64,000 nt of DNA from Lunularia cruciata (taxonomy: Eukaryota > Streptophyta > Marchantiopsida > Lunulariales > Lunulariaceae), in contig OX419756.1 in NCBI GenBank assembly GCA_948567375.1, positions 63,316,333-63,380,332 of the forward strand. The letters are read 5' to 3'. The notes beneath the pieces are model-generated. The model was given only the letters and a program-made list of their open reading frames with translations, did no database searches and was not told where the DNA came from. Position numbers and translations under genes: made by a program. This document shows, one piece after another, positions 14,801 through 60,459 of this stretch. How positions within the stretch are numbered: the stretch's first letter is position 1; each line of letters opens with the position of its first letter.

Positions 14801-15031
14801 CTTTGGAGTCTTTGGAAGACAAAGACAATGAATCTTTGGATTCATCTTTGTCTTCCGAAAAAGTGGTTTCCCCAAGGTGAGGAACCTTTTTCCAACTCAT
14901 GATCACTAGCTTCTGATCTTTGGACAAAATGTCCTTAAAACTAACTTTTGTTGGTGCCAATCCACAATAACCAGGGCACTGTACAACCTGGGTCTTCCGA
15001 TCAAGAGAGGATAACGAGTTTTAGTTATTGG
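11830..15031 (-). pseudogene. GL2-B pol: protease linker, RT, RNase H, integrase (decayed)
   Basis: Reading leftwards: 14436-14960 is the protease-RT linker (LEELAEYTALFIEFQDILAW); 13953-14261 is RT with MPFGLCNAPTTFQ and FIDDFCVFG; 13530-13940 is RT thumb and start of RNase H (LRAFLGHVRYY); 13044-13400 is RNase H (VDHYALQHLVKK, SNADFLSRL); 12561-13022 is integrase zinc and core (SCDACQR, WGIDFVGP); 12090-12326 is a further integrase part. Each piece is interrupted by stops or frameshifts. It is the old homologue of the pol of element A at 41640-45630. The gene continues at 23822, on the far side of inserted element H. Confidence 0.9.
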
Positions 15032-15032
15032 T

Positions 15033-15139
15033 CATATGTCGTGCGTATATACATTGCTACACAACATACATCGCTGTCAACATCATACACTATAGAAACA
15101 CAACTCACACATAAGTCATACATAGACTCTAAAGTGGCA
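15033..15139. repeat. ~105-bp direct repeat R1 next to the H LTR fragment
   Basis: TGTCGTGCGTATATACATTG and the following ~85 bases are repeated at 15594-15700 with only a few differences. The two copies bracket a 449-bp piece of the H LTR. R2 is part of H's own 3' region, so R1 is a duplicate placed outside the LTR piece. Confidence 0.8.
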
Positions 15140-15588
15140 CAATAATCAGATTGCTTAACACTCTCAACTCAACTCAACTCAGATCAGTACTTGATCTATC
15201 ACTCTATAAACTGCCAACAATTGGGCACTGATTACAGTCAAGCCACACCCACTCAAGCATAGAGAATCCAGGTGACGCTCACCGGCCTCTGTCCACCATA
15301 GCCAAGAACTTGAAGGCTCAACATCAGAGAAGTGAGCTCTCTGGAGCTCTTCAAAACTATCCCCCCTGGACTCGAGCTAGCATTGCAACCCTAACGGTCC
15401 TGCTGACGGCACACTCGACGGTGTGAATTGTGCAAAGTGACAATGGGCCCCACCGTGAAGTCAGTACCCCGAACACCAAATCAGACTGTCGGAAAGTAGT
15501 CCTTGAGAAACTACTAGAATAACTCTAACTACTATCACTGGAACTCTAGTGTCTGAGCAGCTAGATGTAGAACTACAAATGGCGTGAC
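15140..15588 (-). repeat. Truncated 3' LTR of element H
   Basis: Matches the right part of the 5' LTR (about 23373-23821) nearly base for base, including the ending ATGGCRTGACA. On the minus strand the LTR start TGTCACGCC is at 15588. Only about 450 of about 1,460 bp remain; the rest is replaced by repeat R1. Confidence 0.75.
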
Positions 15589-15593
15589 AGCTG

Positions 15594-15700
15594 TCGTGCA
15601 TATATACATTGCTACACAACATACATTGCTGTCAACATCATACACTATAGAAACACAACTCACACATAAGTCATACATAGACTCTAAAGTGCCACAATTG
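15594..15700. repeat. ~105-bp direct repeat R2 (3' untranslated part of element H)
   Basis: Second copy of the repeat at 15033-15139, lying between the LTR fragment and the integrase gene. The stretch 15701-15864 holds no visible gene and is probably the 3' leader of H. No clear polypurine tract is seen. Confidence 0.75.
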
Positions 15701-15864
15701 CTCCCTAGCTGGCGGTTAGGTCCCTCTAACTCTAGATAGCCATCTACTCTAAGTATATGGTATACCCTCTAATGGGCAAAGACCAGGAGGCCGGGTGCTA
15801 TGGAGCCCCATCGTTAGTCGCATGTCTGCAATCTATGCCATATAAAGAATGAACTAGCTATAGG

Positions 15865-17360
15865 TCAAGTACATCTAGAACATAACCACTGTCCCTGAGG
15901 AACCACCGTGAGGGGAGGAGTCATACATGCCATATGCCATCCTCTCGAACAACTATCACACACTAACATAGTAGCAGCTCCACCAGAAGAGCCACATAAC
16001 ATACACCTCAAGCCTGCACATACAAGTGCCAAGCTTGGGTCCATAGTACCATCAATGTTTGGGAGGTGGCATGGCGCACAATTGCGCACATGATCCTTCC
16101 AAACAACGCCATCACGTCCTTCTAACACAAGGACTCCAGATGGCAAAACCTCGTGCACTCTCAAGATAGTGCGGCCTGTAGAAACATCAAGTGTCATCAG
16201 TGCTGTCTGCTGTAGATATACATAGTCGTCTGGATGAAATTGACGGATCGAGGGTCTATAACCTCCTCCTTGAATGGTAGCATAGCATAAAGTATCTCTA
16301 TGCTGAGCAATTGCCAAGTTCTCAAAGGCCATCGGCATCACTCTCTGAAAGATCTTTGCCCGCTGAGAACATACGCTCATCCATACATCGGGGTCATCCA
16401 AGTCCAAAACTACAATAGCATCTTGACGAATGGCTACAGGTAAATCTGGATCTTGTCCATAGAGTAGAAAGTATGGAGAGAGGGATGCTAAGGAGGCTTG
16501 TCGGCTGAACTGATAGCCCATGGCCAACCAAGGTAACTGGAGATTCCAATCTCCCAAGTGGCCTCTCTGCAAACCATACTTTTGCAATCTTCTCTTCACT
16601 GTCTGAACCACTCTCTTTGCTAAGCCATCTGCCTTAGGGTGATCTCGGGAAGTAGTACGATGATCAATCAAAGCCTTGTCACACAAGACCTGAAACTCTC
16701 CCAAGAACTTTGTACCATGATCAGTCAAAACCTCAGCTGGTGCACCAAAATGACTAAGAACTCGATCCAAGAATGAGTAAGTTGTCCCTTCACTAGACTT
16801 GTCAGGAAGTGCCACCAACTCAATCCACTTGGAGAAGTGCTCCACCATCACCAAAACATACCGATGATGTCTCACAGTCAGCGGTAAAGGTCCGGCGAAG
16901 TCCAAACTCCAACGGTAACCCAATCTCATGATAGGTAATGGGTGTAACTATGGCGTAGGAGCATTGAATGATGCTCTAACTTGGTCACAAACCACGCATC
17001 TGGCAACAAACTGATGCACCTCGGTCTGCATACCGCGCCACCAATAATGACTCTGAAGTAAGCTATATGTACGCTTTACTCCAAAATGTCCTAGCTCCTC
17101 ATGAGCATGATGGACCAACTATGGTCTCTGTGATAGAAGTGGTACTACTCGCACTCTACCATCCTCCCATACACTTAAAAGGTGTCTACCCTCCAATCTG
17201 AACCGCTTGGCTTGCTGAAGAACACGGTCTCTCTCCTTGGCCCCAATTGTGCCACCCACAACACGAGTGCAAAGATAGTCCATCACTAAGACATCATCAT
17301 GAATGTCTTGCTGAACTGTACCAATATCTTCACTCTCTGGATCTATGACCTCAATAACTC
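15865..17360 (-). pseudogene. Element H integrase with C-terminal PHD finger
   Basis: Integrase inserts the element cDNA into the host chromosome. The open piece 15865-16929 (354 codons) carries the core: SLDFAGPLP (first Asp), TDHGTKF (second Asp), then HPKADGLAKR, where the expected catalytic Glu of GLAER is Lys. Further right, to about 17360, a broken zinc-binding N-terminal region is visible. After an integrase C-terminal region (FHPDDYVYLQQ, RVHEVLPSGVLVLEGRDG) the protein ends in a PHD finger at about 15868-16005: CMLC, then CDSC, GWHMAC and WLCSRC, i.e. the full Cys4-His-Cys3 zinc pattern. PHD fingers usually read histone tails, so this is probably a targeting module in place of a chromodomain. 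Confidence 0.85.
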
Positions 17361-17361
17361 C

Positions 17362-18900
17362 TCATGTATGCGCTGAGAGAGATACCACCAAAGTCTCTGC
17401 AAATATACACAGAAAGGCCGATGCATGCCAACCTGGCACCATCTCCTCATATGTCTCACCATGCCAACGTGCTCCGGTCTGATTCTGCTGGTTGGGACAT
17501 GGGTTTCTACTCAACCCATCTGCATCACGGTTCACCACTCCAGGTCTATGAACAACCGTGAAATCATACTCTTGTAAAATCAGAGCCCATCGTGCAAGCT
17601 TCCCTGAAAGCTTGTCGGACTCCATCAACCACTTCAGCGGCTGATGATCAGTGATGAGAGTGAAGGGGTTACCAAATAGGTAACATCGGAAATGTGCTAC
17701 TGCCCAAACTGCTGCTAAACACTCTCCCTCATATGAACTATACTTCACCTCCGCTAAATTGTTGGAGCGACTAGCATAGGCCACCACAAACTCCTTCTCC
17801 TCATCATCATGCTGGGTGAGCACCGCTCCAAGCCCCAACATACTCCAATCAGTATGAACCTGAAATGGTCGTCCCCTAATCGGTCTCCTCAAAATAGGAG
17901 CGGATGTCAACCTCTCCTTGAGCTCTACAAAAGCTCTCTCCTGCTCATCTCCCCAACACCACTCTTGTGTAAGCTTGGTCAACTTCGTCAAGGCCTTGGC
18001 AATGGCACTAAATCCTCTAACATAGCGGTGATAGAAGTTCGCCAACCCAAGGAATGCTCGCACTCTGCTCACATCGTAGGCCGAGGAATACGTGCAATAG
18101 CCTCCACCTTGGTCTGCTAGACACCAAGTCCTCCGGGGTAGATAGTGTGACCCAAATACTCAACCTGCTCCTGGAAGAACCTACACTTCCCAGGATGTAA
18201 TTTGAGTCCATGAGATCTCAACCTCTCAAACACCTCCAACAACTATCTCTCATGCTCTTCCACAGTAGTGCTATAAACCAAAATGTCATCAATATAGCAC
18301 CGAGCAAAATCCAATCCAGCTAGGATCCTATCCATGACCCTCTGGAACTCAGCGGGAGCGTTCTTCAACCCAAATGGTAAGAACCTCCATTGATATAACA
18401 CATCCTTGTCGTGAGGATCAATAGCCCAAAATGCTATCTTGGACTTATCCTCCTCCCTGATCGGCAACTAATGATATCCCGCTCAAAGATCCAAAGTACT
18501 GAAGACCTTTGCATGCCCAATCACATCAAAAATCTCCTCTCGTGTAGGCATGGCATACTGATCAGCCTTGGTCTATCGGTTGATAGGACGGTAATCTCCA
18601 CACATCCACCTATCTGTATAGTTGCCATGCATATCCTTCTTGGCTGGCATCACTGTCGCTGATGCATACTCTCCATGTGAAATCTCCACCAAACCAGCCT
18701 CAAAAAGGTCACTACTCCGGCTCTGAATCAATGTCCTCTTCATATCACTATATCGATAAGGACGTCGGAAAATTGGTGTGTCGCTAGTCAACTCAATCCG
18801 TATACCAGGTCCCTTCAGAGCACCCAAATCCTTCATATTGAAGGCAAAACAACTTGTGTGACACCTCAAGAACCTCCAAACCCTCCGTCTTTCCTCTCCT
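17362..18900 (-). pseudogene. Element H reverse transcriptase and RNase H
   Basis: RT starts near 18870 (FRRPYRYSDMKRTLI, KKDMHGNYTDRWMCGDYRPI in 18573-18869) and continues through 18243-18467 with LPFGLKNAPAEFQRVM and the catalytic YIDDILVYS (about 18281-18298). The thumb follows (LHPGKCRFF, EQVEYLGH). RNase H is in 17362-18072: FQVHTDWSMLGLGAVLTQ, YASRSNNLAEVKYSSYEGEC, LITDHQPLKWLM and RDADGLSRNP. The YIDDILVYS signature separates H from the FIDDF-type elements A, B and F. Several stops and frameshifts make it inactive. It is preceded in the same polyprotein by a DNA methyltransferase. Confidence 0.88.
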
Positions 18901-19289
18901 GTAAGCTTGGGTCCAAGATCTGGCTCCCAAGTATCCTCTATAACTGTAGTAGGAGTGGAAGACGTACTGACTGGCTGCTACACTGGGCCCTTGGGAGCAA
19001 TAGTGTCATGCTCCCGACCACTAGAGGTCCCAACCCCTGTGCAAAAAACTCCCTCCACTTTGGCTGCAAGCTCCACACGTCCTCTGGCTGCATCCCATGT
19101 GGACCAAGGTTGTAATCCAAGTACCCCACGCTCACCTAGATGGACTCCAAGTAGACCACTCTCCCTAGTAGCTACTGGATGTGTCCCAAGAATACCATGT
19201 TCACTCGGTCCATCGCCCCCAGCATGTGCCTGAATTGTCTCAATAGGCACAGGGCTCACAAGTGTCCGAGTGGTGATGCCTATCAAGCG

Positions 19290-20265
19290 CATCCTACGCT
19301 GCTCTGCCAAGCCAAGGCTCACAATCCAGGTCAAACAGTTTAGGTCCATAGTCAGAGCTAACACCTGATGCCTAGATGCCTCTGACACTGCTAGAACAGC
19401 GGTAATACCGGTGCAAAACCCATCGCCCGCTCTCTCTCATCAGCATTGGGCTCCACCAACTGCTATAATTGTGAGTCCCAAACAAGTCCAGGTCCTCCCT
19501 CTCAAAAAGCATGAGAGCCTGGGAAACTCATGAGTGTGGGAAATGCAGCTCTAGGCTGTCCAACTAGGTTCACCACTGCCATAGGTGACCTATCAGCCAC
19601 TACCACTATCTGAGACTGACGCCCAACATCCAAGATATCATCAACAAGAATGTGGTCTAGTCGCTGAATCCCATAATAACTATGCTGTAGAACCTCTCTG
19701 GGTAAGAGGTTCATCCACCAAAGACGATGAGCCCGTGATCCCACTCTGGCTGCATCTAACAAAACAGCAGGTCCCATCCAAGAATGGACCTGATGTGTAC
19801 TCGCCACCACTCTAGTGCAAGAATCACCCATCAAAGGAACGTTCTCCAAAAGGTAAGTTGGAGAAACAGACTGATGAACCTGGAGATGTCGTAGTATCCA
19901 TAACATCTCCCAAAACACACCAGAACAAGGATCTCGAAGACCCAAACCGCGGCCCGCACGTGTATGTCCCTGACATGGCCATCCAGAAATCACCAAGTGA
20001 ATAGGCCTATGTCTCTCTAGGTCATGCGCCCCAGTAAGGAAATGTGTCCTGGTAAGGCCTTCTGGTAACCTCTTACTGCTGACATCGGTAATAACTCCGG
20101 ATACCGATAAGCCAAGTGTGCCACATGATGTAGAGAGACTCACCTAGCAGTCTCATCTCTCTCTACATACAAGTACCTCTGTACTCGTATACCCACCTGT
20201 GACACCGCAGCTAGTCCGGTGCTGATCCCACCAAACAACTCCAATAGACATATCCCCTCTAGTGG
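19290..20265 (-). pseudogene. Cytosine-5 DNA methyltransferase domain in element H pol
   Basis: Transfers a methyl group from S-adenosylmethionine to cytosine C5 in DNA. Motifs in order on the minus strand: motif I, LLELFGGISTGLAAV then YVERDETA (about 20145-20260, AdoMet binding); motif IV, LVISGWPCQGHTRAG with the catalytic Cys codon at 19973-19975; motif VI, LLENVP (about 19837-19850); motif VIII-like, DAARVGSRAHRLWW; then FPTLMSFPGSHAF, EPNADERERAMGF and a terminal ASRHQVLALTMDLNCLTW (19300-19390). Damage: a TGA just after motif I, a frameshift near 20040 and another near 19425. It sits after the protease and before RT, and reads as a polyprotein domain rather than an inserted host gene. 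The short motif I-IV spacing and the AHR box suggest a DNMT3/DRM-like rather than MET1-like enzyme (inference). Confidence 0.85.
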
Positions 20266-20299
20266 ATACTGCCAAGCAATGAGTGTGGTATCCAGAGGT

Positions 20300-21183
20300 G
20301 TCAAAGCAATCGCCTCTGGAGGCTCATCCTCACACTCATCCCCTGATGGTACGAAGGCTCCACTCCAAGCCTACTGCACCAACTGATCTGCATGTTGCTG
20401 CAATGCCTCCTCTGAACTCCACAATGGAACATCCAAGGTGGATGGAACAATCCCACTCGTACTCCAAAGCCGAGTGATCTCCTCTGGTACTGGAGTATCC
20501 TTTGCATGGGCGTTCCCCTCCAACAAGTCACCAGGCCAAGTAACTGCACCGCTGAAAGCCAAAAGTGATGTTGCCATGGTCCCGGACTGTAGTGAGCCAA
20601 GACTGCCACTACTGAAGAGTATTGGTAGGTGATATACCCATCCCTCACCTGACTGCCAACCAGGTCTATAGGAGGTTGTCTCCTCCCGATAGTCAATGCT
20701 GAAACCCATAGGGTATAACATTGCTCCCCCAACTAGCACATCATATGACTCAGCTATTGTTGCAATAGCATGAGCTCTCACCACCGAGCTATCAGTCGGA
20801 TGACCAGGCTGAACCTGGACAACAAGCTCTCCACGTGTGATGTACTATGTCGAACCACCACCAAGAGATGTCTAGATCTGAAATGGACACCTCTCCACAT
20901 CGGTCTTCCGTAACTCCAGACCAACAACTGCAGCCTTCCCCAACATAAGGGGTTGCGCACCAGAGTCTAACAAGACTCTCTGTGGTGTATAGACCTTCCC
21001 TGAAAGTCCCACCAAACAAAAGATCCCCCTCTGGTGATCCAATAGGACAACACCAGGTGTAAACCGCGCTCTCAAAGGCCGGTCTAGCTGGCAACTCCTC
21101 CAGTCTAGCCGCTGCTGCCTGCCATAAACCACTGGTCGCTGAACGGTTCCCATGCTCCTCAACCAAGTCAGCTCCACTACCAA
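20300..21183 (-). pseudogene. Element H aspartic protease and linker to the methyltransferase
   Basis: The piece 20872-21183 contains the retroviral-type protease core GLSGKVYTPQRVLLDSGAQP, with the Asp-Ser-Gly-Ala active site at about 20959-20970 and a following LMLGKAAVVGLEL. It would cut the polyprotein. The same frame continues, with stops near 20870, through a linker 20371-20784 (GGAMLYPMGFSIDYREETTS, then an Asp/Glu/Ser-rich part) toward motif I of the methyltransferase. The linker resembles no family I know. Confidence 0.75.
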
Positions 21184-21189
21184 CCACCT

Positions 21190-22057
21190 CTGCTCTAGTA
21201 GTAGGAACTACACCATCCCTACTCTCACACAATGTGGCAGCCAACCGGAATACTAGAGCTGGGTCAACTCCCAATGTAAACATGTCACTGGCTGAAAATA
21301 AAGGATGCCACATAATCAGCTGAGCCGCCCTCAACATCATGCTAGACTCACTCTGTGTAGTAGCAGGTGGCTGACTAGTAGGTACTCCATCAGGTACTCC
21401 ATCACTACCCACCACACCTGCACTGGGATGTCTAGGAACCATGGATGTCGTCTGTAATGCCTCAGATAGCGTGAAAGACTGGGGAAGTCTGACCTGTCTC
21501 CTAACCTCTCCTCTCTGTGGGTCCAACTCCATTGATGCTCCTCTAGGCTCTGGAGCACGTATTGCACTCCTAGTCACTGCTGCAGATGCATCCACCTGTG
21601 CTACTCCGCACATGAAGTCCAAAGCATCTCTATCACCAGCATATGAGGTGGAAGCCTCAGCACCTAAATCTGATCTCCTTCGAGCAATAGCTATACTAGC
21701 CAATATTTGCTCCAACTGCTCAATCCGAGTAGCCATAGCTGTGTCAGAAGTAAGGGCAGGTACTACACCCCTACTATGTGTAGATCCTCTACCACCACCT
21801 CTACCACCTCATCCTCCATGAACTGGAGCTCCTCTACTACCTGCCATAGCAGCCCTACCACTCCGTAACTCCGGATGTAGGTCAAAACACTGGTCACTAG
21901 TGTGACCAAATCTATGGCAGTGCTCACACTGCCTCTGTGCTGGCTGTGATGCACCAGAGGTATCAGGTCCGCTGCCTTGAGTACACTCTCTCAAATGGTG
22001 AGGTCCACCACAAGTCCAACAAGCAACACCACCACTCACTAATGTAACTCTAACCAA
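21190..22057 (-). pseudogene. Element H gag C-terminus with two zinc knuckles; capsid not seen
   Basis: The piece 21809-22057 has two CCHC zinc knuckles, CWTCGGPHHLREC and CEHCHRFGHTSDQC, then a Gly/Arg-rich tail. The piece 20792-21736 begins MATRIEQLEQILASIA, a short coil followed by an Ala/Ser/Pro-rich linker, before the protease starts in another frame. Between the zinc knuckles and the primer-binding site only about 275 bases remain and they encode no recognisable capsid domain. The capsid part of gag is therefore deleted in this copy or supplied otherwise. Confidence 0.7.
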
Positions 22058-22331
22058 GATAACTACACTAGGGGAAAGGCAACCTGTAACCTGCCATCAT
22101 AACATGCACTCTCACGGTCTGCAGGTCATCACTTCCTACCTCACCGGAGAGAAACAAAGGTAGTCTGACTGGTCATCACCCCAGCCTCACCATCGAGAGC
22201 ACACCAGAGCACCAACGCTCAAAAGTCAGGGCACCTCACACAAACGTGGTGCACAAACGGGAAGCAGAGAATGGAGGGGATCCAATCACAAGAAATCTAA
22301 ACGAAAACCCTCCATCTCATAACACAACACA

Positions 22332-22349
22332 GGACTGACTCTGCCACCA
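22332..22349 (-). other. Probable primer-binding site of element H
   Basis: The minus strand reads TGGTGGCAGAGTCAGTCC, which looks like a diverged form of the iMet-type TGGTATCAGAGC site. It lies 9 bases inside the proposed LTR end at 22359. The spacing is longer than usual and the match is imperfect. Confidence 0.5.
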
Positions 22350-22358
22350 TTTGGCATT

Positions 22359-23821
22359 TGACATAAGAGCCGTTCGTATCTAAGTCCTAAGCTACCAAGA
22401 TCACCAAGAATGGGATCAAACTGTCTCTCCTAGCCAAAGCTACATGTGTATAGATAACAATGGCGCAGTCACTAGGACAACAAGTGAGAGTGGACCAGTT
22501 GGCTAGGGCACCAGTCTAGGAACAAGAGATCTAGGGGTCAACCCCTGTTGTGCACAATCTAGCAAGAAAGGCAGATTTTGCCAACCAATGACCAAGATCT
22601 ACTCTAAACTAGCTAGCCTCACGCCAGCAAGCTGGCTTGCTGGCCCTTATAGGCCTTCGTAGCCTCTCATAGCCCACAGCCCTATGCCTCAAAGTCTCTA
22701 AATGCCAAATGAGGCCTTTCTTGTTGCCACTTCGAAACCTCCTCCAAAATTAGTGAAACTTCTCCAAATCTGTGAAAGTCCTCCAAACTAGCAAAACTCC
22801 TCCAAATCTAGCCAAATAGCAAATGAGGCCTTTCTTGTTGCCACTTTGAAACCTCCTCCAAAATTGGCAAAACTTCCCAAATCTGCGAAAGTCCTCCAAA
22901 CTAGCAAAACTCCTCCAAATCTAGCCAAACAGCAAAAACTCCTCCAAATCTGGTCCAAAATCTGACGTAAACCCTAAAGATGGTTGTTTGCCAAATCCCC
23001 CGCTAACTTTCTACTCAAGCCAAATTGACAAAACGGGTTTTTCCAAATCACAATTTCATGAGAAGAGCTTCCCAATTCCACCTTCAATTTCACTTTCTGA
23101 GCCCAACTCGCAGCAAATTGGTCCTGCCTTCACCTCCTGAGCTCAAAATCACAACACTGCTCAAAAACTGCGCCTTCTTTGCTCAAAATTTTGGCCAGCG
23201 CTTCTGCACACCGTCCGCCTAACTGCCAAATCTGAATCACTTGAACGAGCTTCTGCACACTAGGGAAGCACAGAACTTGAATAGAGCTACCACGATCCAC
23301 CGAGCTTGGAGATACCCCCAACACACAGCGTTCCTGCACCCGATTTCCCCCTGACTTCACTTCTCTGATGTAATCAGATTGCTTAACACTCTCAACTCAA
23401 CTCAACTAAGATCAGTACTTGATCTATCACTCTATAAACTACCAACAACTGGGCACTGATTACAATCAAGCCACACCCGCTCAAGCATAGAGAATCCAGG
23501 TGACGCTCGCCGGCCTCTGTCCACCATAGCCAAGAACTCGAAGGCTCAACATCAGAGAAGTGAGCTCTCTGGAGCTCACTTCGAAACTATACCTCCCTTG
23601 ACTCGAGCTAGCACTAGAACCCTAACGGTCCTGCTGACAGCACACTCGACGGTGCAAACGGTGCAAAGTGACGGTGGGCTCCACCGTGAAGTCAGTACCC
23701 CGAACACCAAATCAGACTGTCGGAAAGTAGTCCTTGAGAAACTACTAGAATAACTCTAACTACTATCACTGGAACTCCAGTGTCCGAGCAGCTAGATGCG
23801 GAACTACAAATGGCATGACAC
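22359..23821 (-). repeat. 5' LTR of element H (~1.46 kb) with internal duplication
   Basis: The minus-strand start TGTCATGCC is at 23821 and the proposed end TTATGTCA at 22359. The right 450 bp match the 3' LTR fragment at 15140-15588, and the part from about 23190 matches a third copy at 60460-61082. A ~115-bp tandem duplication lies at about 22705-22933 (unit containing GAGGCCTTTCTTGTTGCCAC). The left boundary rests on the primer-binding site and is less certain than the right. Confidence 0.65.
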
Positions 23822-25817
23822 ACAACACAATGTAATTTAAATTGAAGGGCACCTCTCTTATGATTGTAGTTATATTTGACCGCATGCCCAAGGGCAGTCT
23901 CATGGTTTGATCTGCAAAGTTCAGAATTTGGGGTGTTGGTTCAAAAATTTTGTACCCTAGTTAATGTGCAATGTCTTCTATCATGACATTAACACCCAAC
24001 CCCAAATCAATGGGTATGGATAAGATCATGCAGCCTGTAATCTCTACACCACTTTGGGAAATCCCAAATTGTCCTGTTCAATATGATAAATTGTGGGCAA
24101 GGCTTTCTTGGTCATTGCCCTTACTTTCTTGAAGGCTAAACTCAGCTGCTTTTTGTTCAGCTTGTTGTACTCCCACAATTGCTTAATGTGACATTAGCAC
24201 TCATAGATGTCATATCAGCCACAATATTGTACTATGGGACTCCTCCCAATTTCACCTTCTTTGCCTTCGTTTTTGGGTCCGAAGTCTGTCCTTGTTCAGA
24301 TTGGACTTCGGGGTGCTTCAAGATGGTAATCAGAGTACGGATGGCCTTGATCCATTGATCTTTGGGTTGACCAACTTTGGCTTGGATCAAGTCTTTTACT
24401 TTGGACCTCATATCCACCGGAAAAACTAGAGGCTATGTCTTTGTGTTCTCTTCTAAACTCATCTCTTGTGTACGGAGTACTACTTCCTTGATTTCTTTCC
24501 ACAAGGCTTTTGCTTTAGCTTTGCTAGAATCTTTTCCTCCTAAGTAGAAAGGATAGGTTTTGGGCGTAGCCTCTTTGCCTTTTGTGAAGACAAAGAAGTA
24601 GTACTCACTTCTTGGAGATTGCACTTCTTCTTACTTGCGTGTGTCTCTACCTTCAAAATTTCAAGATCCGTCCATTCTCCTTCTGAAGCGGGACTCCCTT
24701 CTTGAAGCCTCTCTTCCTCAAGTGTTATACAATTTACATTTGTATCCTCTTTTGCTTGGAGTGCAGCACGCTCAGTGGGGGTCTATACATAATTTACAAG
24801 CGGCTTTAGGTTGGGTGGTTGCGGGCATTGATTTCTTGTATGCCCCAATCCTTTACAATTTCCACAAAGAGGAACGTACCTAATTTTCCGTCTTGGCTCT
24901 GGACAATTTGGAGACCAATGTCCCATCAAACCACAATTGTAGCAAGCACCCGGTGCAACCTTTTGAGGTCTATTTTGGTCCCCCATTGGTGGTCTTTGTG
25001 GGGGAGCGTTATTGTTGTATTCCCTTGGTCCATACCTCAGACCTTGATACAATGTGCTTGCCCGAGGCTATACCTCTTGGGTTTGGTACACAACCTCTTC
25101 TTCCTCACTTTAGTCCCAACCGAGTGCAATCAAACACTCCATATTAGCATGGCCAGATTTACCACACAAAGTGCACCATACATTTGGTCAACCAAATGGC
25201 GGAGGCTTTCTTTGGTCCTTAGCCCCAATCATCTAGATCTTGAAATCTGTAAACTCTTTAATAAGAGTCTCTAGCTTCTGATCCGCCTTAGGTACATTCT
25301 TTGGTGGCGGTGTTACTGGTTTCTTTCCTCTACATCTTTGTATTCTTTGTGGCTTTGATTCTTCTTTGGATTCCAAAGAAGAACTCAAAGATGTGGAGGA
25401 TTCCTCCAAAGAAGGGGATGTATTGCAAGAAGCTCTCCTTCTAGGCTTCTTGCCTTTCTTCTCCCAATTTCTTTGGTTGATGGATGAGTGTGAGTGAGCC
25501 ACCTCATATCGGGCTACATGTTTGAGGACTTTGTCTAGGGAAGTTACATTCCTCTCCCTGGCAAATATATAAATCTCCGGTGAAAGTCTGCCAAGGAACT
25601 AGGTAATGGCTTGGGCATTGGAGTAACCCACCACACCGAATTGTTTCGGAACTTGGTTCAATAGGGCCATGAACCGCTTAGAGTAATCTCTCAACTTTTC
25701 CTTCTTCCCTTGGTCCAAATCATTAAGTTCCACAAAGACACTCATATCATAATCCACTTCCTGGAATTGTTTCGGGAAGCCATTTTGTAAGTCTGCCCAA
25801 TCTACTAGTAGGAGCAA
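23822..25817 (-). pseudogene. GL2-B gag and protease region (right of inserted element H)
   Basis: Continuation of GL2-B beyond H. Pieces: 24232-24624 (Lys-rich gag-protease junction, KAKALWKEI), 24783-25052 (zinc knuckles CYNCGLMGHWSPNC and CGNCKGLGHTRNQC), 25233-25502 (basic/Ser-rich linker) and 25599-25817 (capsid part, LNDLDQGKKEKLRDYSKRF). The protease active-site region at 23822-24230 is decayed. All parts align with the gag-pol of element A (44301-53410), where an extra knuckle is also present. The gene ends abruptly at 25817, where a plus-strand giant-LTR piece begins; the 5' part of gag, the PBS and the 5' LTR are missing. Confidence 0.85.
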
Positions 25818-34333: not shown

Positions 34334-37300
34334 TCAAGCCTCTAGAAATCTAGTGCAAACCTTCCTCCAAAACATGATCAGGTACTTCTTCCAAGTTGCT
34401 TCTTTTCTGTTACCTCCTTCTGCAACTCCAATATTGTGTTGGAACGTATCTCTCTTGTTCTCTTTCAAATCTTGCACTTTGTTGTAGAGCTTATGGTTTC
34501 TCACAAGTAACTTCTGATATCCTCCTGTTGCTGCTTTGGTAGGCTCTTGGATTCTAATACAAATATCTGCAACAGAGTCATGCCATGCATTATGGAACCC
34601 CACAACCAGAAGTCTACTATTTCGTGATGCAACTTGGAGATTCTTTAGCTTCTTGAGAAAACTTTGCAGGCAGTTCTTGAAGGACCCCTGCTTCTCTTGC
34701 AAAATCTTGGCAGCTGCCTTTGAACTGGTCCCCAAAGCACAATATTTGTTCTTGGACTCCTGGAGCTGAAGTTCAATGCTCACCATTCTTTGTTCCATTT
34801 CTAGCCCCAACTCTTCTTTCTGCAATTTGTACAACTGTGCGTGCCCTTCACTCAATCGCTTCAGTGCACCGATATCGGTCAAAGCAGTGGTTTTATCCAA
34901 AAGCTGCATCTTCTCTTCAGCAAGTATTACTAGCTCCTGATCTGACCCTTTGAGAGTGTTGATATCCTTCATGAGTAGACTAATTGTTGACAAAAACTCC
35001 TTCCTTTCATTGGCAAGCTGTACTCTCTTCTGATCCAATAGCTTGAATGTACTTGTCCCTTCAGCCAACATTTCCTTTTCCCCCAAAACATCTTCTTGTA
35101 CATCAACCAATTTGCCTTTTCTTCTGTTCTTCCTTCTTTGACAAGTCCTTTTGTGGCTTTGATTCGGTCTGGCCATTTTGCACCATATCTGCATCCATGA
35201 GCAGCAACTCAAGCTCTGCCTTCCTTTTCTTCTCTTCCTTCTTTTGGAAGGCTGCCTCTTCCTCCTTCTTCTTCTTCTTCTCTTGCGCAGGTAGGCTTCC
35301 AATACCATTTCACCACTCTTGGTCTTCCTCATCTTCTCCATAAGTTCCTCACTAAGCTCACCTAGTCCTGTGTGAAACTTTATCTCAATGTTTCCTTTCT
35401 CTGATTTCTTGCCCACCACCTTTTCCTCGTCCAATCCTCCTGTCTTAGACAACAAGAACAGATACTTTGCTTGCAACTTATCTTTCTCCTTACCAATAAC
35501 CTTCTCAATATTGCTATTCCCATCCTCTTTGACTCTACCACCTTCTTGCTCAAAGTCAGAACTTGATGCCACATAGCCTTTGAAGTCTTGTTCATTCAGT
35601 TGGTCAAGATTGAACTTTTGCCTCAAAGCTTTCTCATACTCCTGCAGCTTCTTAGGATCAACTTCATCATCAATTTTGTTGTCGTTGTGGCTGTAAGTAC
35701 CTTGAGGTCCCTGCATTGCTTCCTTTGCTATCTGCTCCACCCCAAATTCAGATGAATATATTGTCAAAGACTTGACTTCCCCTCCTTTCAGTTGGAAAGA
35801 GCACAGCCCTAGAGGCAAGTCTAATGTTGTGGTGTGGCCCCAATCCATGTTTGTGAGTGCAAGCCTTTTAGTTCCCTGATTTGTGGTAGGAACCTTCTCC
35901 TCTTCATTTCGCACCTTTTTGGCATCACTCTCACTATCTGAAGATGATGACAACGAGTATGACTCTTCTTCCTCCTCTGCATCTTCATAAAGTCCTGATC
36001 CTTCTTCTTCTTCACCCAAAGGGAAAAACAAAGCCCTCATTTGATGCATTTTAAGTGGATCTTGTCTCAATTCAGAAGGTAACAAGTGAAGCAATGCTGC
36101 TTGAGAAGCAACACTATGAATCTGGTCATACCTTTCCTCATCTTTGTCAACTTCCATAGCTTCCTTACCAATGTCAGGACCTTTTGGTGAGAGATCTTCA
36201 GAATTCTCCTCCACACCTTCCATCACATCTTTTCCTAAAAGAACTAGCTCCTTGCTAGACCCTTGTTGAGGAGTTTCTTCCTTGTCAGAGTCATCCAACC
36301 TGTTTCTGCTGAAGTGATTCCCTTGAAACCTCCATTCTCCCCTTAGACCGTCGTGCAAGATAAAATCAGCACCATGTTCTTCAGTTTTCTTCTTCAATCT
36401 CTTCTCAAATTTATCTGCCTCTATTCCTTTAATAAAATGTTGCACACTCTTCTTGTCAATGGTAAGAGCTTTCCCTACCTTTGCTTTTGGAGGCCATTCC
36501 ACCCCCGACTCCTTTACAGCAAACCCTGTATCATGAAACTTATGAGCGTACCAAGAATTTATACCAACCTTGCTTTCGTTCTTGGGCAATCTTTGAAATT
36601 GCAGGTCATGGTGAACTTGAGAAACTTGAGCATCTCCCACTAGAGGTCCATCTTGTCCTTGCCTCTTTGTTTCTCCTCCTTGATATTTCTTCTTCTTCTT
36701 TTCCATCTCATCTAAATCTGTACTTTGTTTCATCTCACCCACTGCACTATACATACTAGGCCCAAAAGTAGCAATTGCCATACCTACTTCACGTGTGCCC
36801 AAGTGTCTCTCCAGCAGTGCCTTCATGCCTCCTCTGTTCCAGTTCAGCGGTATTGGCTCCCCAGTGTCAAAGAAGGCAACCTTCTTCATTCCGGGCTCTC
36901 CCATAAATTTCACCAGCTGCTTATGCAACACTTCTGATAGCTCATGGCAATCTCTCTTGGCATGACTTTTACTATCACACCACATGCACCCATAGAGCTG
37001 TCTCTTCTCTCCGATTGTTCTCGCAGTACTACTCCCACTCTGCAGCTGGTCGACCTTGGTAGTCAGAGCTTTCAGCCCCTCCATTAGTCGTGATATCTTG
37101 TCAATAGCTCCTTCCTTAGCCACCTCGCTCACTCGCTGTTCCATCTTCTCTCTCCCGGACCCAACCATGCTACTCCAAATAGGCGCTTCGGCTATTGCTT
37201 CTTCATCTAGCTCTCTCTGCCTCCGCCTACGGCTTACCCAGACAACCGCCTCCTCAATCTTTCCCCACTCTACCGTTCCCAACTGATCAGGTTGGAGCAA

Positions 37301-37957
37301 ATCAAGTGCATACTCCAACTCATCCCGCAAACGACTATCTGCAGCTAGCAGAAAGTAGTTAGACCTCTGTAGTCTAATGGCCTTAGCTTCACAAGCTGAC
37401 AGATGCCCCAGTCTCTTGTTAAACTCTCTTAGGAGATCTTGAGGCCCCAAGTTTTTACTCCTATCATTCACCCAATCCAAGAACATGGCCTGGGTGACCC
37501 GATCTGCATCCTGCAGCAAGAATTCCTCCTTCATCATCTGGGAGAACTCCTCCCATGTCTCTGCCCCTCTCACCAAGCCCTCGACCACCTTCTTGATTTC
37601 AAGCTCCACCAGCTTAGGGAACCTTGCAATGGCAACCTTCTCATCAAGACCATGAAGCTTAACCTCTCTCCAGTAGACCTTCAGGTACTTAGTCACGTCC
37701 TTACCATCAAATTCCCCCCGCTGGTCCACCACAGCACGCAAACATTTTGTGACTTGCAAAGACTGCACCTTCACCCTGTCTCTTTCCTCATCCTGATCCT
37801 TCATGGCTCTCATGGTTGCCATGACAATCAGTGAGATCTCCTTTTCCCTTGTCATAGCTGCAGATGAAGCCTCTGGGCCCATCTCTACCTCAGCATAGCT
37901 CACCTCCTCTCCACTTAGATCAGTCCAATCTGTCCTTGTTCCCTTCCCCAACTCCAA
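34334..37957 (-). CDS. Element G: large gag-like protein, no pol
   Basis: One open frame of 1,207 codons fills almost the whole interior of element G. Residues ~75-240 have a retrotransposon gag/capsid pattern (GEFDGKDVTKYLKVYWREVK, TWEEFSQMMKEEFLLQDADR). One CCHC zinc knuckle, CMWCDSKSHAKRDC, lies at about residues 322-336. Long acidic Ser/Glu-rich sequence and then Glu/Lys-rich coiled coil (LQKEELGLEMEQRMVSIELQ) follow to the end. No protease, RT, RNase H or integrase is present, so G would need another element's enzymes. A Lys/Arg-rich stretch at about 35115-35310 looks read in a shifted frame: the neighbouring frame gives a better coil. The type resembles gag-only (TR-GAG-like) plant elements. 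The start was taken as the first ATG after the primer-binding site. Confidence 0.72.
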   Translation of the reverse strand: MELGKGTRTDWTDLSGEEVSYAEVEMGPEASSAAMTREKEISLIVMATMRAMKDQDEERDRVKVQSLQVTKCLRAVVDQRGEFDGKDVTKYLKVYWREVKLHGLDEKVAIARFPKLVELEIKKVVEGLVRGAETWEEFSQMMKEEFLLQDADRVTQAMFLDWVNDRSKNLGPQDLLREFNKRLGHLSACEAKAIRLQRSNYFLLAADSRLRDELEYALDLLQPDQLGTVEWGKIEEAVVWVSRRRRQRELDEEAIAEAPIWSSMVGSGREKMEQRVSEVAKEGAIDKISRLMEGLKALTTKVDQLQSGSSTARTIGEKRQLYGCMWCDSKSHAKRDCHELSEVLHKQLVKFMGEPGMKKVAFFDTGEPIPLNWNRGGMKALLERHLGTREVGMAIATFGPSMYSAVGEMKQSTDLDEMEKKKKKYQGGETKRQGQDGPLVGDAQVSQVHHDLQFQRLPKNESKVGINSWYAHKFHDTGFAVKESGVEWPPKAKVGKALTIDKKSVQHFIKGIEADKFEKRLKKKTEEHGADFILHDGLRGEWRFQGNHFSRNRLDDSDKEETPQQGSSKELVLLGKDVMEGVEENSEDLSPKGPDIGKEAMEVDKDEERYDQIHSVASQAALLHLLPSELRQDPLKMHQMRALFFPLGEEEEGSGLYEDAEEEEESYSLSSSSDSESDAKKVRNEEEKVPTTNQGTKRLALTNMDWGHTTTLDLPLGLCSFQLKGGEVKSLTIYSSEFGVEQIAKEAMQGPQGTYSHNDNKIDDEVDPKKLQEYEKALRQKFNLDQLNEQDFKGYVASSSDFEQEGGRVKEDGNSNIEKVIGKEKDKLQAKYLFLLSKTGGLDEEKVVGKKSEKGNIEIKFHTGLGELSEELMEKMRKTKSGEMVLEAYLRKRRRRRRRKRQPSKRRKRRKGRQSLSCCSWMQIWCKMARPNQSHKRTCQRRKNRRKGKLVDVQEDVLGEKEMLAEGTSTFKLLDQKRVQLANERKEFLSTISLLMKDINTLKGSDQELVILAEEKMQLLDKTTALTDIGALKRLSEGHAQLYKLQKEELGLEMEQRMVSIELQLQESKNKYCALGTSSKAAAKILQEKQGSFKNCLQSFLKKLKNLQVASRNSRLLVVGFHNAWHDSVADICIRIQEPTKAATGGYQKLLVRNHKLYNKVQDLKENKRDTFQHNIGVAEGGNRKEATWKKYLIMFWRKVCTRFLEA

Positions 37958-41639: not shown

Positions 41640-44600
41640 ATAGACCTCGGGTGTCTTAGAAACTTCCGAGTCTATGGTCCAATATCTCCGAACTCTCCAC
41701 CCGTTTACTCGAGTGGCAAAAGGATTACCTTCCAAATCGATGAGTTGCAGGGATCCATTTTCGTAAAGATGACGAACTCAATAGGGACCCATCCATCGCA
41801 AATGCAACTTGCCTGGAAAAAATATTCGGTGATTATCATATAACAAAACCAAATCCCCTTCTCGTACAGTCACAGGCTTGATTCTCTAATCATGCCTGAC
41901 TTTCTGCTGTGCTTGTACTTCTTTCGTGGTTTGCATTGCATCGTCTCTTTTCTCTTGTAACCCCATCAGTTGTTGAATCCGAAGATCCTGACTTTCCTCT
42001 TCCGACATTTGTTCTTCGCACAGGACTCGATAAGTTGGAACTTCAAATTCAACTGGCAGTATGGGGTGCAAGCCATATGTCAAGAAGTATGGAGTTTGTT
42101 TGGTTGTAATCTTCTCTGTTGTCCGATAGGCCCATAACACGGCTGGTAATTTTGTATCCCAATCATATGCATAATTGACAGTCACCTTATTCAAAATTTT
42201 ACAAAGTAACCCATTCGCTTTTTCCGTTAAGCCATTCGCTTTTGGGTTATAAGGAGTCGTCTTCCGATGTTTAATCTGAAAATACTTGGTTAACTCCTCC
42301 ATTACAGAGTTCAAAAAATGTGTTCCTCGGTCACTGACCAATTCCAGAGGACACCCATATCGGGAGATGATGTTTCGAAAGAAAAATTCCACTACAGTTT
42401 CAGCATCATCTCTACGAGTTGCTTCCGCTTCAACCATCTTGGTAGCGTAATCAGTGCAAACCAAAATATATCGCTTTCTTGTGACTCGGGTTACTGGTTG
42501 AATGGGACCCACAAAATCAATACCCCATTTCTCAAAGGGAGCCAAAGGCAAAATTGGTTTCAAAGGCCATTGAGAAGTGGCCGTCGGCTTCCCCGTTCTC
42601 TGACACGCATCACAGCTTCGAATATGAGCATGTACATCTTTGTACATTGTAGGCCACCAATACCCTGCCGAAAGAATTTTCTTTACAGTATTCTTCAGAG
42701 CATAGTGTCCTCCCGATGCCTCGGAGTGTAAAGATTCAATTACTCCTCCTACTTCGTATGACTCCAAGCATCGCCGAAGTACGTCATCTTTGCCCATCTT
42801 AAATAAAATGTTGTGTTTAAGCTGGTACGGCCCCATTTTCCGGAGAAAGACTGCCCGCTGTTCCGGATCCATCCCCTCAGGACAATGGAGAGTATTCAGA
42901 TAATTATATTCATCTGCATACCTCGTACTTCTCATTGCTGATAAGTGATACAACTCTTCGTCAGGGAACCGATCGTCAATTTCCCACTCCTGGTCTTGAG
43001 TGCCTAACCTGGACAGGAAATCCGCATTCGAATGCAGAGCTCCCTTCCTTACTTGTACAGTATACGTGAACTCTTGTAATAACAAGATCCATCTTGCAAT
43101 TCGTCCTGATAAATCTGCCTTCTTGACCAGATGTTGCAATGCATAATGGTCAACATAGAAGACAAACTCATACCCCAACAAATAATGCCAAAATTTCTTG
43201 CAGGCATACACCATTCCGAGTGCTTCTCTTTCCGTCGTTGAATAATTCTTTTTAGAAACTGAAAGTTGTTGGCTGGCGTAATACACCGGGTAATCTTTCT
43301 TCTTCTCGTCCTTTTGACTTAAGACAACCCCGATGGCCATGGACGAAGTATCCACATACACATGAAAAAGGACGTCACAATTCGGGGCCCTCATGACTGG
43401 TGCTTCAACCAGTTTCTTCTTCAACACCTGGAAGGCTTCTTCTTGATGTGCTTCCCACAGATAGTCTTTGGATTTCTTCAGAAGCTTTGTAAGTGGTGCA
43501 GCAAGCACTGCATAGTTTGACACGAAGTGTCTGTAATATCCGACATGTCCCAAGAAGGCTCTCAGCTCCCGGATGTTCTTCGGGGATTCCAAAGCTGCGA
43601 TTATTTTAACCTTCTCAACATCGACTTCAATACCTCGGCTTGACACCCGATGCCCCAGAAGAATTCCCTCCTTCATTGCGAAGAAGCATTTCTCCGGGTG
43701 TAATGACAAGCCGGCAAAACGACACCTTTCAAACGTTTGGCGAAGGTAATCTCTATGTACATCCCGTCGTCCAAACACACAAAAGTCATCAATAAAAACT
43801 TCGACAAATTTGCGCAGGAAATCTTTAAAGATCGAATTCATCATCTGCTAGAAAGTAGCGGGAGCATTACACAACCCAAAGGGCATTTGATTGTAAGCAA
43901 AAGTGCCCCAATTGGTCGTGAATGTAGTTTTATCCTTGTCTTCTTCCCAAATGGATACTTGATTGTACCCTAAAAATCCATCGAGAAAACTATAACAATG
44001 ATGCCCAGCCACCTGGTCTAAGATTGTATCGGTAAAAGGCAAGGGATGATGATCTTTCCTTGTGACTGCGTTCAATTTTCGAAAGTCTTGGCACACTCGG
44101 ATCTTCCCTGTTTTCTTCTTCGGGACAATGTCAATGGGGGAGACCCATTCACTGCTTAAGACAGGGAAGATGATTCCGGCCCCTAAGTACTTATCGATTT
44201 CATCTTTTACCAAGAGCCAGTACTTTGGGTTCAAGCGGTATTGTCGCTGCCGAACCGGAACTGCACCTTCAATCAAATCAATCCGGTGTTCTCCAAATTC
44301 TCATGGAATACCCAGCATTTGATCAATCGACCAGGCGAATACATCCTGGAATTCTATAAACAGGGCAGTGTATCCTGCCAACTCCTCCGAAGTAACTGTC
44401 TTTGAGATTTTTAAAATTTTTCCTTCAGTGAGTAACACCTCTTGACAGTCATCGGGGTTGATGACTACTTCAACGTGGCTTACTCGGCTTATCCCGAGGC
44501 GAGCGGCCATCAAACCCCCTCCCTCCAAGTCAGGTTCACCCGAGGCGAGGTCATATGGATCTTCGTCGTCAGCCTCTACCTCGTAGCATTCCAAGTAATT

Positions 44601-45630
44601 AACTTGGACTTCTTCTTCAGATTTGTCTGAAGACGAAGACAATGAATCTTCGGACTCGTCCTCCTCTTCTGACGAACTTGTTTCCCCAAGATGGGGAACC
44701 TTCGTCCAACTCACAGTCACCAGCTTCTGATCCTTGGACAAAATGTCCTTGAATCTTAACTTCTGCTGATGCCAATCCACTACAACTTGGGCACTATACA
44801 ACCAGGGTCTGCCGATCAACAGAGGGTAACCAGTTTTTGTCACTGGCTGCAACACGATGTAATTCAACTTGAAGGGTACCCCTCCAATGATTGTGGTAAT
44901 GTTCGACAGCATGCCCAAGGGCCGTCTCCTAGTTTGGTCTGCAAACTTCAAAACTCGGGGTGTTGGTTCAAACGTATGATACCCGAGTCGATTCGCAGTA
45001 TCTTCAGTCATGACATTCACACCGGACCCACAGTCAATGGGTATCGATGTGATCATGCAACCTGCAATCTCCGCGTCTACCTCGGGAGATCCCAAATCTT
45101 CTTGTTCAATACGATAGATAGCAGGCAGGTCCTTCTTTGACATCAACCTCACCTTCTTGAGGGCCGAGTTAAGCTGTCTCTTGTATAGCTTGTTATCTTC
45201 CCACAATTGCTTAAATGTAACATTGGCATTTGTGGTGGCCAAGTTGGCTATAATATCATATTGGGGAACTCCTCCCAATTTGACCGTCTTCGTCTTCGGC
45301 TTTGAGTCCGAGGACTCTCCATGCTCCCTTTTGATGTCGGGACGCTTCAAAATGGTGACAGGCTTGCTGATGGCCTTAACCCGAGCTTCCTCGGGTTGGC
45401 CTACCTCGGCTTGAATCAGACCCTTTACTTCGGATCGGATGTCCACCGGAAAAATTGGAGACTTTGTCTTTGTCTCTTCTTCCAAACTTAGTTCCCGAGT
45501 CCTGAGTAATGCCTCTGTTAATTCTTTCTGCAAGGCTTTAGCTTTAGCTTTTGCAAGGATCTTTTCCTCCTTGGCCGAAAGAATTGCTTTTGGGCGCTGT
45601 CTCTTCGCCTTTCGGGAAGACGACGAGGTC
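41640..45630 (-). pseudogene. GL1-A pol: protease, RT, RNase H, integrase
   Basis: Three long frames with few breaks. 44301-45533 (410 codons): protease with PIDCGSGVNVM near residue 164 and GYPLLIGRPWLYSA, then an acidic linker. 43848-44276: RT fingers and palm (KKKTGKIRVCQDFRKLNA, MPFGLCNAPATF), ended by a TAG at 43848-43850. 41886-43844 (652 codons): FIDDFCVFG, RNase H (YVDTSSMAIGVVLSQ, VDHYALQHLVKK, SNADFLSRL), integrase zinc pairs and core WGIDFVGP, SDRGTHF, KANGLTEK with 35 residues between second Asp and Glu. Integrase continues to about 41640 past further stops. There is no chromodomain. The FIDDF/GLCNAPATFQ signature suggests the non-chromoviral Tat/Athila-like branch. It is split from gag by element F. 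Confidence 0.92.
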
Positions 45631-45634
45631 GTAC

Positions 45635-46313
45635 TGTAACACCCATTTGTGCATGGGTGTGGTATTGTGATATTTAGCTTGGTATTACAAGTACTTAAGA
45701 GATATTATTTATATAAAGATAAAGGATGGTTCTATATTAGTCATGGTTAGCTAAAGTTAGTCATAGCTAAGATAGATGGGACCTTACTTTAGAGGAAGTA
45801 GAAAAGATGAACACCACTATTTTGGATTTTAGTGTGTTGACTTGGTATTATTCCTAGGTGTTTGGCTTTGGGGAAAGAGTTGAGAACTCTTGGGCCCGCA
45901 AGCCTTTTTGTTTTGGATTCTTCTTTAGTCCAAGGATAGCCCATGTGAAGGAATCCTTGCTTTAGTGGTTGGGTCAAGATAAGGGGAATATGCCCATGTG
46001 AATGGATATTCCTTTCTACTTTTTGACTTTACTTGACTTTTAGTCTAGTAACTTGAGTTACTACGGTAATTAGTAACTTTGGTACGTAACTATTTCACAA
46101 GTATATAAACAAGGAGTGAGGAGGTACTCATCATCCTTTCATTTGCAACTATCTCTCTCTCATTGAGTTCTCTAGTGAGCAATGTCTTGAGTCTTGGAGT
46201 GTTAGCCTTGGAGGAGTATGATGGAGTTGGGGTTCCTTGCCTTCTTAGTCCATGGTGCGCTACCATAATAGCCATCAGAGGTTCATCCTGAGTGAGAGAC
46301 AGGCCGGCTCACA
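45635..46313 (+). repeat. 5' LTR of element F (679 bp)
   Basis: Begins TGTAACACCCATTTGTGCAT and ends GGCCGGCTCACA. A TATA-like ACAAGTATATAAACAAGG lies near 46096-46113, placing the transcription start about 30 bp downstream. A 232-bp piece of the same LTR family occurs at 59830-60061. Confidence 0.95.
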
Positions 46314-60061: not shown

Positions 60062-60459
60062 TGTGGTGCCCACATTTTTGGTTTTTCTCTATTTATTAGT
60101 GTTTAAGAGAAGAAGTAAGCATTGGAAGCCAAATTGCGGACAAAGAATGGACGGAAGTAACTTTGGAGGACATCCAAAGAAGACGATATTGGATTTGATG
60201 ATGGATGTACTCAAAACAAAGGTACAACTGAAAAAGTCCAAAGAGCACCATCTTTGGGTCGGAAGGCGCAAGAGATACAAAGACCGTTTAACAACCTTGG
60301 TATGTGGCAAGAAAGTACACTTCAAGAAACGGCGGAGGCAGAAGAAGCATGTCTTGACAGTGACCGGACATCAACACGCAAAAGAGAGGAGGTCAAATTT
60401 GAAATTGACTAAAGAATGACTGCAATTCGGGGTAATATAAGATTGCGATTGCGCAGGGC
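60062..60459 (+). repeat. Start of a plus-strand GL2 giant LTR (U3 only)
   Basis: Begins TGTGGTGCCCACATTTTTGG and runs through U3 to a TAATATAAGATTG TATA-like motif near 60433, where it is cut off. The open frame here (60027-60419) is the same non-coding U3 that appears open in other copies, for example 11450-11719 on the minus strand; no function is claimed. Confidence 0.8.

Follow-up and report, generated by a model that had tools for sequence, protein, structure and literature searches.

A broken Ty3/Gypsy element of Lunularia cruciata with a DNA methyltransferase of probable DNMT3 type, an integrase PHD finger and split terminal repeats

The Element and Its Parts

The DNA analysed here, referred to as the window, is a stretch of 64,000 nucleotides of the Lunularia cruciata contig OX419756.1 (assembly GCA_948567375.1, positions 63,316,333 to 63,380,332 of the forward strand). 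At 15037-23820 on its minus strand lies a broken copy of an element of the Ty3/Gypsy type, which has split terminal repeats and the ends TGTC...GACA, and which sits within another Gypsy element. All parts of the element described below are on the minus strand and are taken in the direction in which it is read. Relatives are designated P0002 to P0139.

The first repeat is followed by a leader stretch (22687-22959) in which a unit of 113 bp is present twice in tandem (22706-22936). The gag part (21071-22096) has a CCHC knuckle, located in 22096-21812, and is 45% identical to the Marchantia protein P0006 over 22030-21071 by tblastn; no Pfam family matched it at the curated cut-off. The next region (20300-21070) aligns to P0006 with 56% identity over 21072-20029. 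It matched no Pfam family and is designated a putative protease from the motif DSGA, the stretch ESYDVLVGG..LYPMGF and its position upstream of the methyltransferase; the relative P0020 gives a weak match to Asp_protease_2 (E 0.0023, under the cut-off). Downstream of the methyltransferase the reverse transcriptase (18130-18680) has the YIDD motif and several stops; it matches PF00078 in 18467-18246 (E 1.6e-12) and is 65% identical to P0023 over 18944-18078 by tblastn. An open stretch with an RNase H domain follows (17365-18159; PF17917, E 1.4e-36, and PF17919, E 7.2e-33), and then the integrase core with a PHD finger at its C-terminus (15868-16947; PF00665, E 1.8e-12, and PF00628, E 5.9e-11), the finger itself at 16005-15868. 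This is the Ty3/Gypsy order of protease, reverse transcriptase, RNase H and integrase with an rve core, the protease being recognized from its motif. A Pfam scan of ten pieces of the element detected no tyrosine recombinase, the integrase being of the DDE (rve) type, and no chromodomain, the place of which is taken by the PHD finger. In the whole window neither Rfam, at its gathering scores, nor a scan for tRNAs found anything.

Terminal Repeats and Insertion Site

Along the minus strand the order is A1 - coding - B1 - A2 - B2. Repeat A1 forms the 5' end (23371-23820, 450 bp) and A2 (15143-15589, 447 bp) aligns to it with 421 of 450 columns identical; with 26 mismatches and 3 gap columns between the two A repeats the insertion is not a recent one. 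B1 (15592-15698) and B2 (15037-15143), both of 107 bp, are identical at 104 of 107 positions, and B2 forms the 3' end. The extent of the element is given by an empty site: its flanks at 14903-15031 and 23823-23996 align to 44717-44846 and 44850-45023, which adjoin each other with three bases between the two alignments. The flanks adjoin in this related sequence, and therefore nearly everything between them, B2 included, is insertion. The copy that holds the empty site belongs to a related Gypsy element at 41889-45704 on the minus strand.

Another copy has left a remnant at 60457-61083 on the minus strand, which comprises repeat A and the leader (85.9% over 631 columns). It has the same 5' start, TGTCATG, and an unrelated flank, and no B repeat was detected in it. 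Ordinary direct LTRs are ruled out by the empty site and this remnant, because the repeat of 107 bp is found at the 3' end and is absent from the 5' end. The element is thus Gypsy by its proteins and not by its ends. The junction of B1 and A2 reads GACA-GC-TGTC, which looks like the two ends of the element joined with two bases between them. A candidate target duplication of 4 bp, cata / caca, was read from the flanks by eye and matches at three of four bases; a match of five bases, CACAA, was dropped as a target duplication since it sits in repeat B.

Two other open frames of the window should be mentioned. The minus-strand frame 34334-37957 (1207 residues) has an ESF1 RRM domain (E 1.4e-16), preceded by a stretch which looks gag-like and has no Pfam gag match; possibly this is another host gene that has become fused to a retroelement. 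On the plus strand 47150-50812 encodes an intact Gypsy pol of 1220 residues, protease to integrase.

The Methyltransferase

The first-pass annotation of the window described a cytosine-5 DNA methyltransferase inside a Ty3/gypsy pol from a series of motifs, and all of these motifs are found on the minus strand, spread over three frames. Motif I, LLELFGGISTGLAAV, is in the open stretch 20370-20144; GWPCQGHTRAG (motif IV), LLENVP (motif VI) and the box DAARVGSRAHR share the open stretch 20143-19505; the end MDLNCLTW is in a separate third frame, 19436-18984. The DSGA stretch and the YIDDILVYS of the reverse transcriptase are, as described, on the same strand. Of the proposed match to Pfam DNA_methylase a part stood: the piece 20143-19505 matches with E 3.3e-4 and 20.6 bits, which is under the curated cut-off of 22, while the pieces with motif I and the C-terminal end gave zero matches in the Pfam scan. 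A profile was made from seven relatives, of which two have internal gaps, and the three minus-strand frames of 18984-20370 scored 339, 137 and 47 bits against it. Since 200 shuffled stretches, each in six frames, scored at most 4.1 bits, a chance match is rejected. Motifs I, IV (PCQ/PCN), VI (ENV), VIII, IX and X stand in un-rearranged order, in the relatives as well as in the window, where they run over three frames. We conclude that the minus strand of 19290-20265 encodes a C5-cytosine methyltransferase within a Ty3/Gypsy element, with the protease and the reverse transcriptase on either side. From the motifs, Pfam, tblastn and the profile its extent is taken as 19320-20290, three frames with stops.

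These stops and frame changes, like the PHD finger at the C-terminus of the integrase and the split terminal repeats, come in addition to what had been annotated. At least four frame changes are needed to align the relatives (gag/protease, two in the methyltransferase, and reverse transcriptase/RNase H). The four stretches matched by P0006 contain 4, 1, 2 and 0 stops and the two matched by P0023 contain 5 and 4. The copy is a broken pseudogene, and because of this decay it is unlikely to make the enzyme now.

The family of the enzyme was judged from its relatives. A profile of nine methyltransferases from such elements matched 56 chains of solved structure, with DNMT3A first (E 8e-21) and DNMT3B second, followed by 4onj (1e-12), which we take to be the tobacco DRM, DRM2 (1e-9) and HhaI (4e-7); the tRNA enzymes of the DNMT2 type came at 0.003-0.03, and no chain named DNMT1, MET1 or CMT was among the 56. 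The domain of the Calypogeia relative alone gave DNMT3A at 1.6e-12, 4onj at 2e-8 and DRM2 at 2.6e-5. A domain from the second layout (see below) gave DNMT3A at 4e-6 and 4onj at 0.016. The 172-residue piece of the window, used alone, matched no DNMT3 structure, its best E being 0.75. These comparisons, made with the relatives and not with the window piece alone, indicate an enzyme of the DNMT3 type. NCBIfam gave for four relatives only dcm and IS481 transposase matches under the cut-off.

The PHD Finger

At the end of the integrase frame all eight zinc ligands of the PHD finger are present; of the 115 proteins in which a PHD region occurs, 109 match the C4HC3 pattern of ligands. The closest counterparts of known structure include the fingers of CHD4, KAT6A, PHF12, DPF2/3, KDM5, PHF21A, AIRE, BAZ2A and UHRF1. 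Most PHD fingers of these solved relatives read the unmodified N-terminus of histone H3.

A search with integrase plus PHD finger was passed by 311 proteins. In the 120 of them that were listed the PHD label is present in 116, the exceptions being P0039, P0041, P0061 and P0094; the union of integrase and finger is seen from green algae to liverworts. The named sources among the same 120 are Klebsormidium nitens, Marchantia, Calypogeia, Haematococcus lacustris and Volvox reticuliferus, to which come Chromochloris, from a label, and P0024, which carries the name of a EukProt transcript assembly. The element belongs to a lineage which spans green algae, Klebsormidium and bryophytes. Searches of the viral contigs of IMG/VR for relatives of the methyltransferase or of the integrase with PHD finger found none, apart from 12 loci with partial matches (26-42%), which do not enter the analysis.

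Relatives with the Methyltransferase

A search of proteins of 495 to 1575 residues with the methyltransferase piece, in which shared words were required and the threshold was E 0.001, gave 19 proteins. Eleven are from Marchantia polymorpha, one from Calypogeia fissa and one from Sphagnum troendelagicum; neither a named vascular plant nor a K. nitens methyltransferase is among the 19. A protease-type sequence stands directly ahead of the methyltransferase in proteins of Marchantia, Calypogeia and Sphagnum (the Calypogeia protein is without DSGA), and the methyltransferase is followed by reverse transcriptase in the Marchantia gene models P0003, P0008, P0013 and P0016. P0042 has methyltransferase, reverse transcriptase, RNase H, integrase and PHD finger in one protein. 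The order protease, methyltransferase, reverse transcriptase proposed for the window thus holds up, and because both halves of it recur in relatives the assignment of the methyltransferase to the element is supported.

Altogether 138 relatives were kept for a survey of layouts, and 38 of them have a methyltransferase stretch. In the second layout the methyltransferase stands after RNase H and ahead of the integrase: 18 proteins read methyltransferase-integrase-PHD, some of them with the end of the methyltransferase only, and P0020 reads reverse transcriptase-RNase H-methyltransferase. In 19 rows the methyltransferase is not directly before the integrase; P0003, P0008, P0013, P0016 and P0042 have it ahead of the reverse transcriptase, and the other rows were assigned to the first layout by default. 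Where a protein has neither reverse transcriptase nor RNase H and extends 250 residues or more upstream of the integrase zinc domain, the methyltransferase is present in 17 of 18 cases; the exception is P0101 from Haematococcus. Another Haematococcus protein, P0125, reads reverse transcriptase-RNase H-integrase-PHD with no methyltransferase in that place. In P0019 a G-patch domain (PF01585 label) is found at about residue 404, between methyltransferase and integrase. The second layout would be algal, an assignment which rests on one named row, P0119 from Volvox.

One Capture or Several

The methyltransferase tree has 36 rows, those under 150 residues having been dropped, and contains DNMT3A as sole outgroup and no host plant DNMT3, DRM, CMT or MET1. 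It should be noted that the window is represented by a piece of 213 residues, the first part of which is out of the enzyme frame and makes its branch too long, and that the root hangs on the very long branch of DNMT3A. All 15 rows of the second layout group in a single clade (99/99), and the layout labels need two changes, the smallest number possible. The integrase tree (119 rows, quick method) places the window beside P0021 and P0039 from Calypogeia inside a clade of 55 rows (SH-aLRT 99), which includes both K. nitens rows, the PHD integrases P0028 and P0057. The label changes three times on this tree, and the second layout may accordingly have arisen or disappeared repeatedly.

The two layouts could be independent captures of a host DNMT3, so that a single ancient lineage with methyltransferase and PHD finger would not exist. 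The two places in the polyprotein and the three changes on the integrase tree would fit such a history, as would a methyltransferase tree without host plant DNMT3, and de Mendoza et al. (2018; PMC5890265) infer that the lineage of K. nitens made its acquisition independently. Against it, methyltransferase identity between the layouts is 38-42% (one Marchantia row compared with five rows of the second layout), the methyltransferases of the second layout stay together in their tree with as few as two label changes, and the PHD finger is common to the integrases of both layouts. We regard independent captures as a possible history, though a somewhat doubtful one; a single capture of the methyltransferase is favoured and not proved.

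Catalysis or Binding

Rows of the first layout have PCQ in 15 of the 16 cases which reach motif IV and ENV in 16 of the 17 which reach motif VI. In the second layout PC is replaced by EC in 10 of the 12 rows reaching motif IV (P0020 has PCQ), while EN of motif VI is kept in 13 of 14. The change of PCQ to ECQ is conserved across divergent elements of this layout, e.g., P0076, P0099, P0116 and P0120, and we know of no C5-methyltransferase family with E at this position. In P0119, the only methyltransferase row of the second layout with an organism name, the match is down to 46 bits and motifs IV and VI are lost. For both reasons the role of the domain in second-layout members may be different or lost.

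One could go further and suppose that the domain is kept for binding DNA or RNA in the replication complex, with catalysis secondary or lost, at least in the second layout. The exchange of PC for EC and the Volvox sequence point in this direction, as do the differing positions of the domain in the polyprotein. Copies of the bryophyte type, on the other hand, retain PCQ and ENV with very few exceptions, and EN persists in the second layout itself, which makes us consider this hypothesis rather unlikely.

A Model for the Active Element

The window holds a degenerate copy of a Gypsy element with a methyltransferase of the DNMT3 type and a PHD finger. The explanation we find probable, at moderate confidence, is that the active ancestor of this copy would have methylated its own cDNA and steered its insertion with the finger. 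The model postulates that the methyltransferase was made within a gag-protease-methyltransferase product and that it would methylate the cDNA or a circular intermediate of the element before or at integration; it could act on this cDNA because methyltransferase and integrase-PHD come from one element. The PHD finger of the integrase would anchor the integration complex to the tail of a histone, probably to that of H3 without methylation at K4. A new copy would then land in silent chromatin with the mark already on, to be kept up by the maintenance enzymes of the host, and the outcome would be a self-silencing insertion strategy of low harm. The copy in the window very likely no longer follows this strategy.

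The products gag-protease-methyltransferase and reverse transcriptase-integrase-PHD may be separate, because annotated products end 66-88 residues past the methyltransferase (Calypogeia P0004, Marchantia P0005 and P0006, P0007 and P0009) and because the window has, in one frame, a stop between methyltransferase and reverse transcriptase. For the branch of P0042, with both parts in one protein, the arrangement argues against separate products. As to activity, the methyltransferase of the K. nitens element gave none in yeast, which counts against the model, though its authors call the result inconclusive; in favour of the model, methylation of CG in yeast is reported for the SymbioDIRS-Dnmt3 enzymes of Symbiodinium (PMC5890265).

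The enzyme could instead work in trans on host DNA, shifting the methylation and silencing of the host, and a host-wide effect has been discussed for Symbiodinium (PMC5890265). The methylome of K. nitens, which bears the nearest known element, resembles nevertheless that of land plants (PMC5890265), and the methyltransferase shares its product with gag and protease in P0006, and may for this reason be packaged into the particle. Action in trans is in our judgement unlikely, and methylation of the element's own cDNA is preferred. That a host methyltransferase gene fell by chance into a single Gypsy copy, an objection foreseen in the first-pass annotation, would agree with the lack of a second copy in the window which reaches the methyltransferase (the remnant has repeat A and leader), and is dismissed as extremely improbable since the methyltransferase stands behind a protease-type stretch in three named bryophyte genera.

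Comparison with Known Elements

Retrotransposons bearing methyltransferases were described by de Mendoza et al. (2018; PMC5890265) in dinoflagellates and charophytes, a precedent correctly named in the first-pass annotation. By its published description KnitGypsy-Dnmt3 of Klebsormidium nitens is the closest known element and is of the same kind. Like the element in the window it has an un-rearranged methyltransferase domain of the DNMT3 type in a Gypsy pol and DIRS-like split repeats, and it is free of introns (PMC5890265); the stretches matched in the window directly adjoin one another. A figure legend gives the K. nitens elements Gypsy domains and repeats as in DIRS elements, whose order is A-coding-B-A-B (PMC5890265). 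The two differ in that the nearest named relatives of the window element are liverworts and a moss, and in the PHD finger on its integrase, the term PHD having no occurrence in the main text of that paper (PMC5890265). The dinoflagellate elements SymbioDIRS-Dnmt3 and SymbioLINE-Dnmt are also retrotransposons with a C5-methyltransferase, of the DNMT3 type and active in yeast in the DIRS ones, and were judged unrelated to the Gypsy case (PMC5890265). These are tyrosine-recombinase or LINE elements, whereas the window element has a DDE integrase. Integrases with a PHD finger do exist in K. nitens, i.e., P0028 and P0057, seen as integrases apart from the K. nitens methyltransferase.

The chromodomain of chromoviruses sits at the end of the integrase, and the ADD domain is a reader of the H3 tail. 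Like chromoviruses the window element has a chromatin-reading module in its pol product, but the module is a PHD finger and not a chromodomain; PHD has no occurrence in the main text of Neumann 2019 (PMC6317226). Among solved structures host DNMT3A comes closest to the catalytic domain, and animal DNMT3 couples this domain with an ADD domain (PMC12344493), whereas reader and writer of the element lie in different parts of the retrotransposon products.

According to Morozov (2019) land plants, with tracheophytes as example, have no methylase transposons (PMC6338049). A paper from 2025 cites de Mendoza et al. for DNMT3s borne by elements in streptophytes and dinoflagellates, and uses the name ChloroDNMT for a chlorophyte-charophyte group (PMC12344493). 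In the literature covered, which includes Yaari 2019 (PMC6453930), PMC6317226 and a review from 2021 (PMC8616336) and has most subscription papers and the preprints outside it, we found no methyltransferase-bearing elements in bryophytes, and earlier reports are possible; within the same scope there was no report of PHD fingers on Gypsy integrases. As far as these sources go, the kind of element is known from algae, and what is new beyond de Mendoza et al. (2018) is the occurrence in bryophytes, the integrase PHD finger and the second layout.

What the Element May Mean

As a wider hypothesis, which we put forward tentatively and at less than even confidence, the relatives would form an old Gypsy lineage present throughout the Viridiplantae (chlorophytes, charophytes and land plants) and combining a writer of the DNMT3 type, a PHD reader of the H3 tail, DIRS-like split repeats and a DDE integrase. 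It would be a mobile read-and-write module which marks and places its own copies. Its methyltransferase would go back to a single capture and would have changed position within pol afterwards.

The statement on land plants (Morozov, 2019; PMC6338049) would need correction for bryophytes. Methylation is a main weapon of plants against transposons, and an element which carries this weapon itself is a testable puzzle; the PHD finger suggests that the reading and writing of chromatin are combined in it. What a transposon gains from a methyltransferase of its own is hard to test in dinoflagellates and Klebsormidium. Marchantia is a genetic model, and if it harbours such elements this gain would be directly testable.
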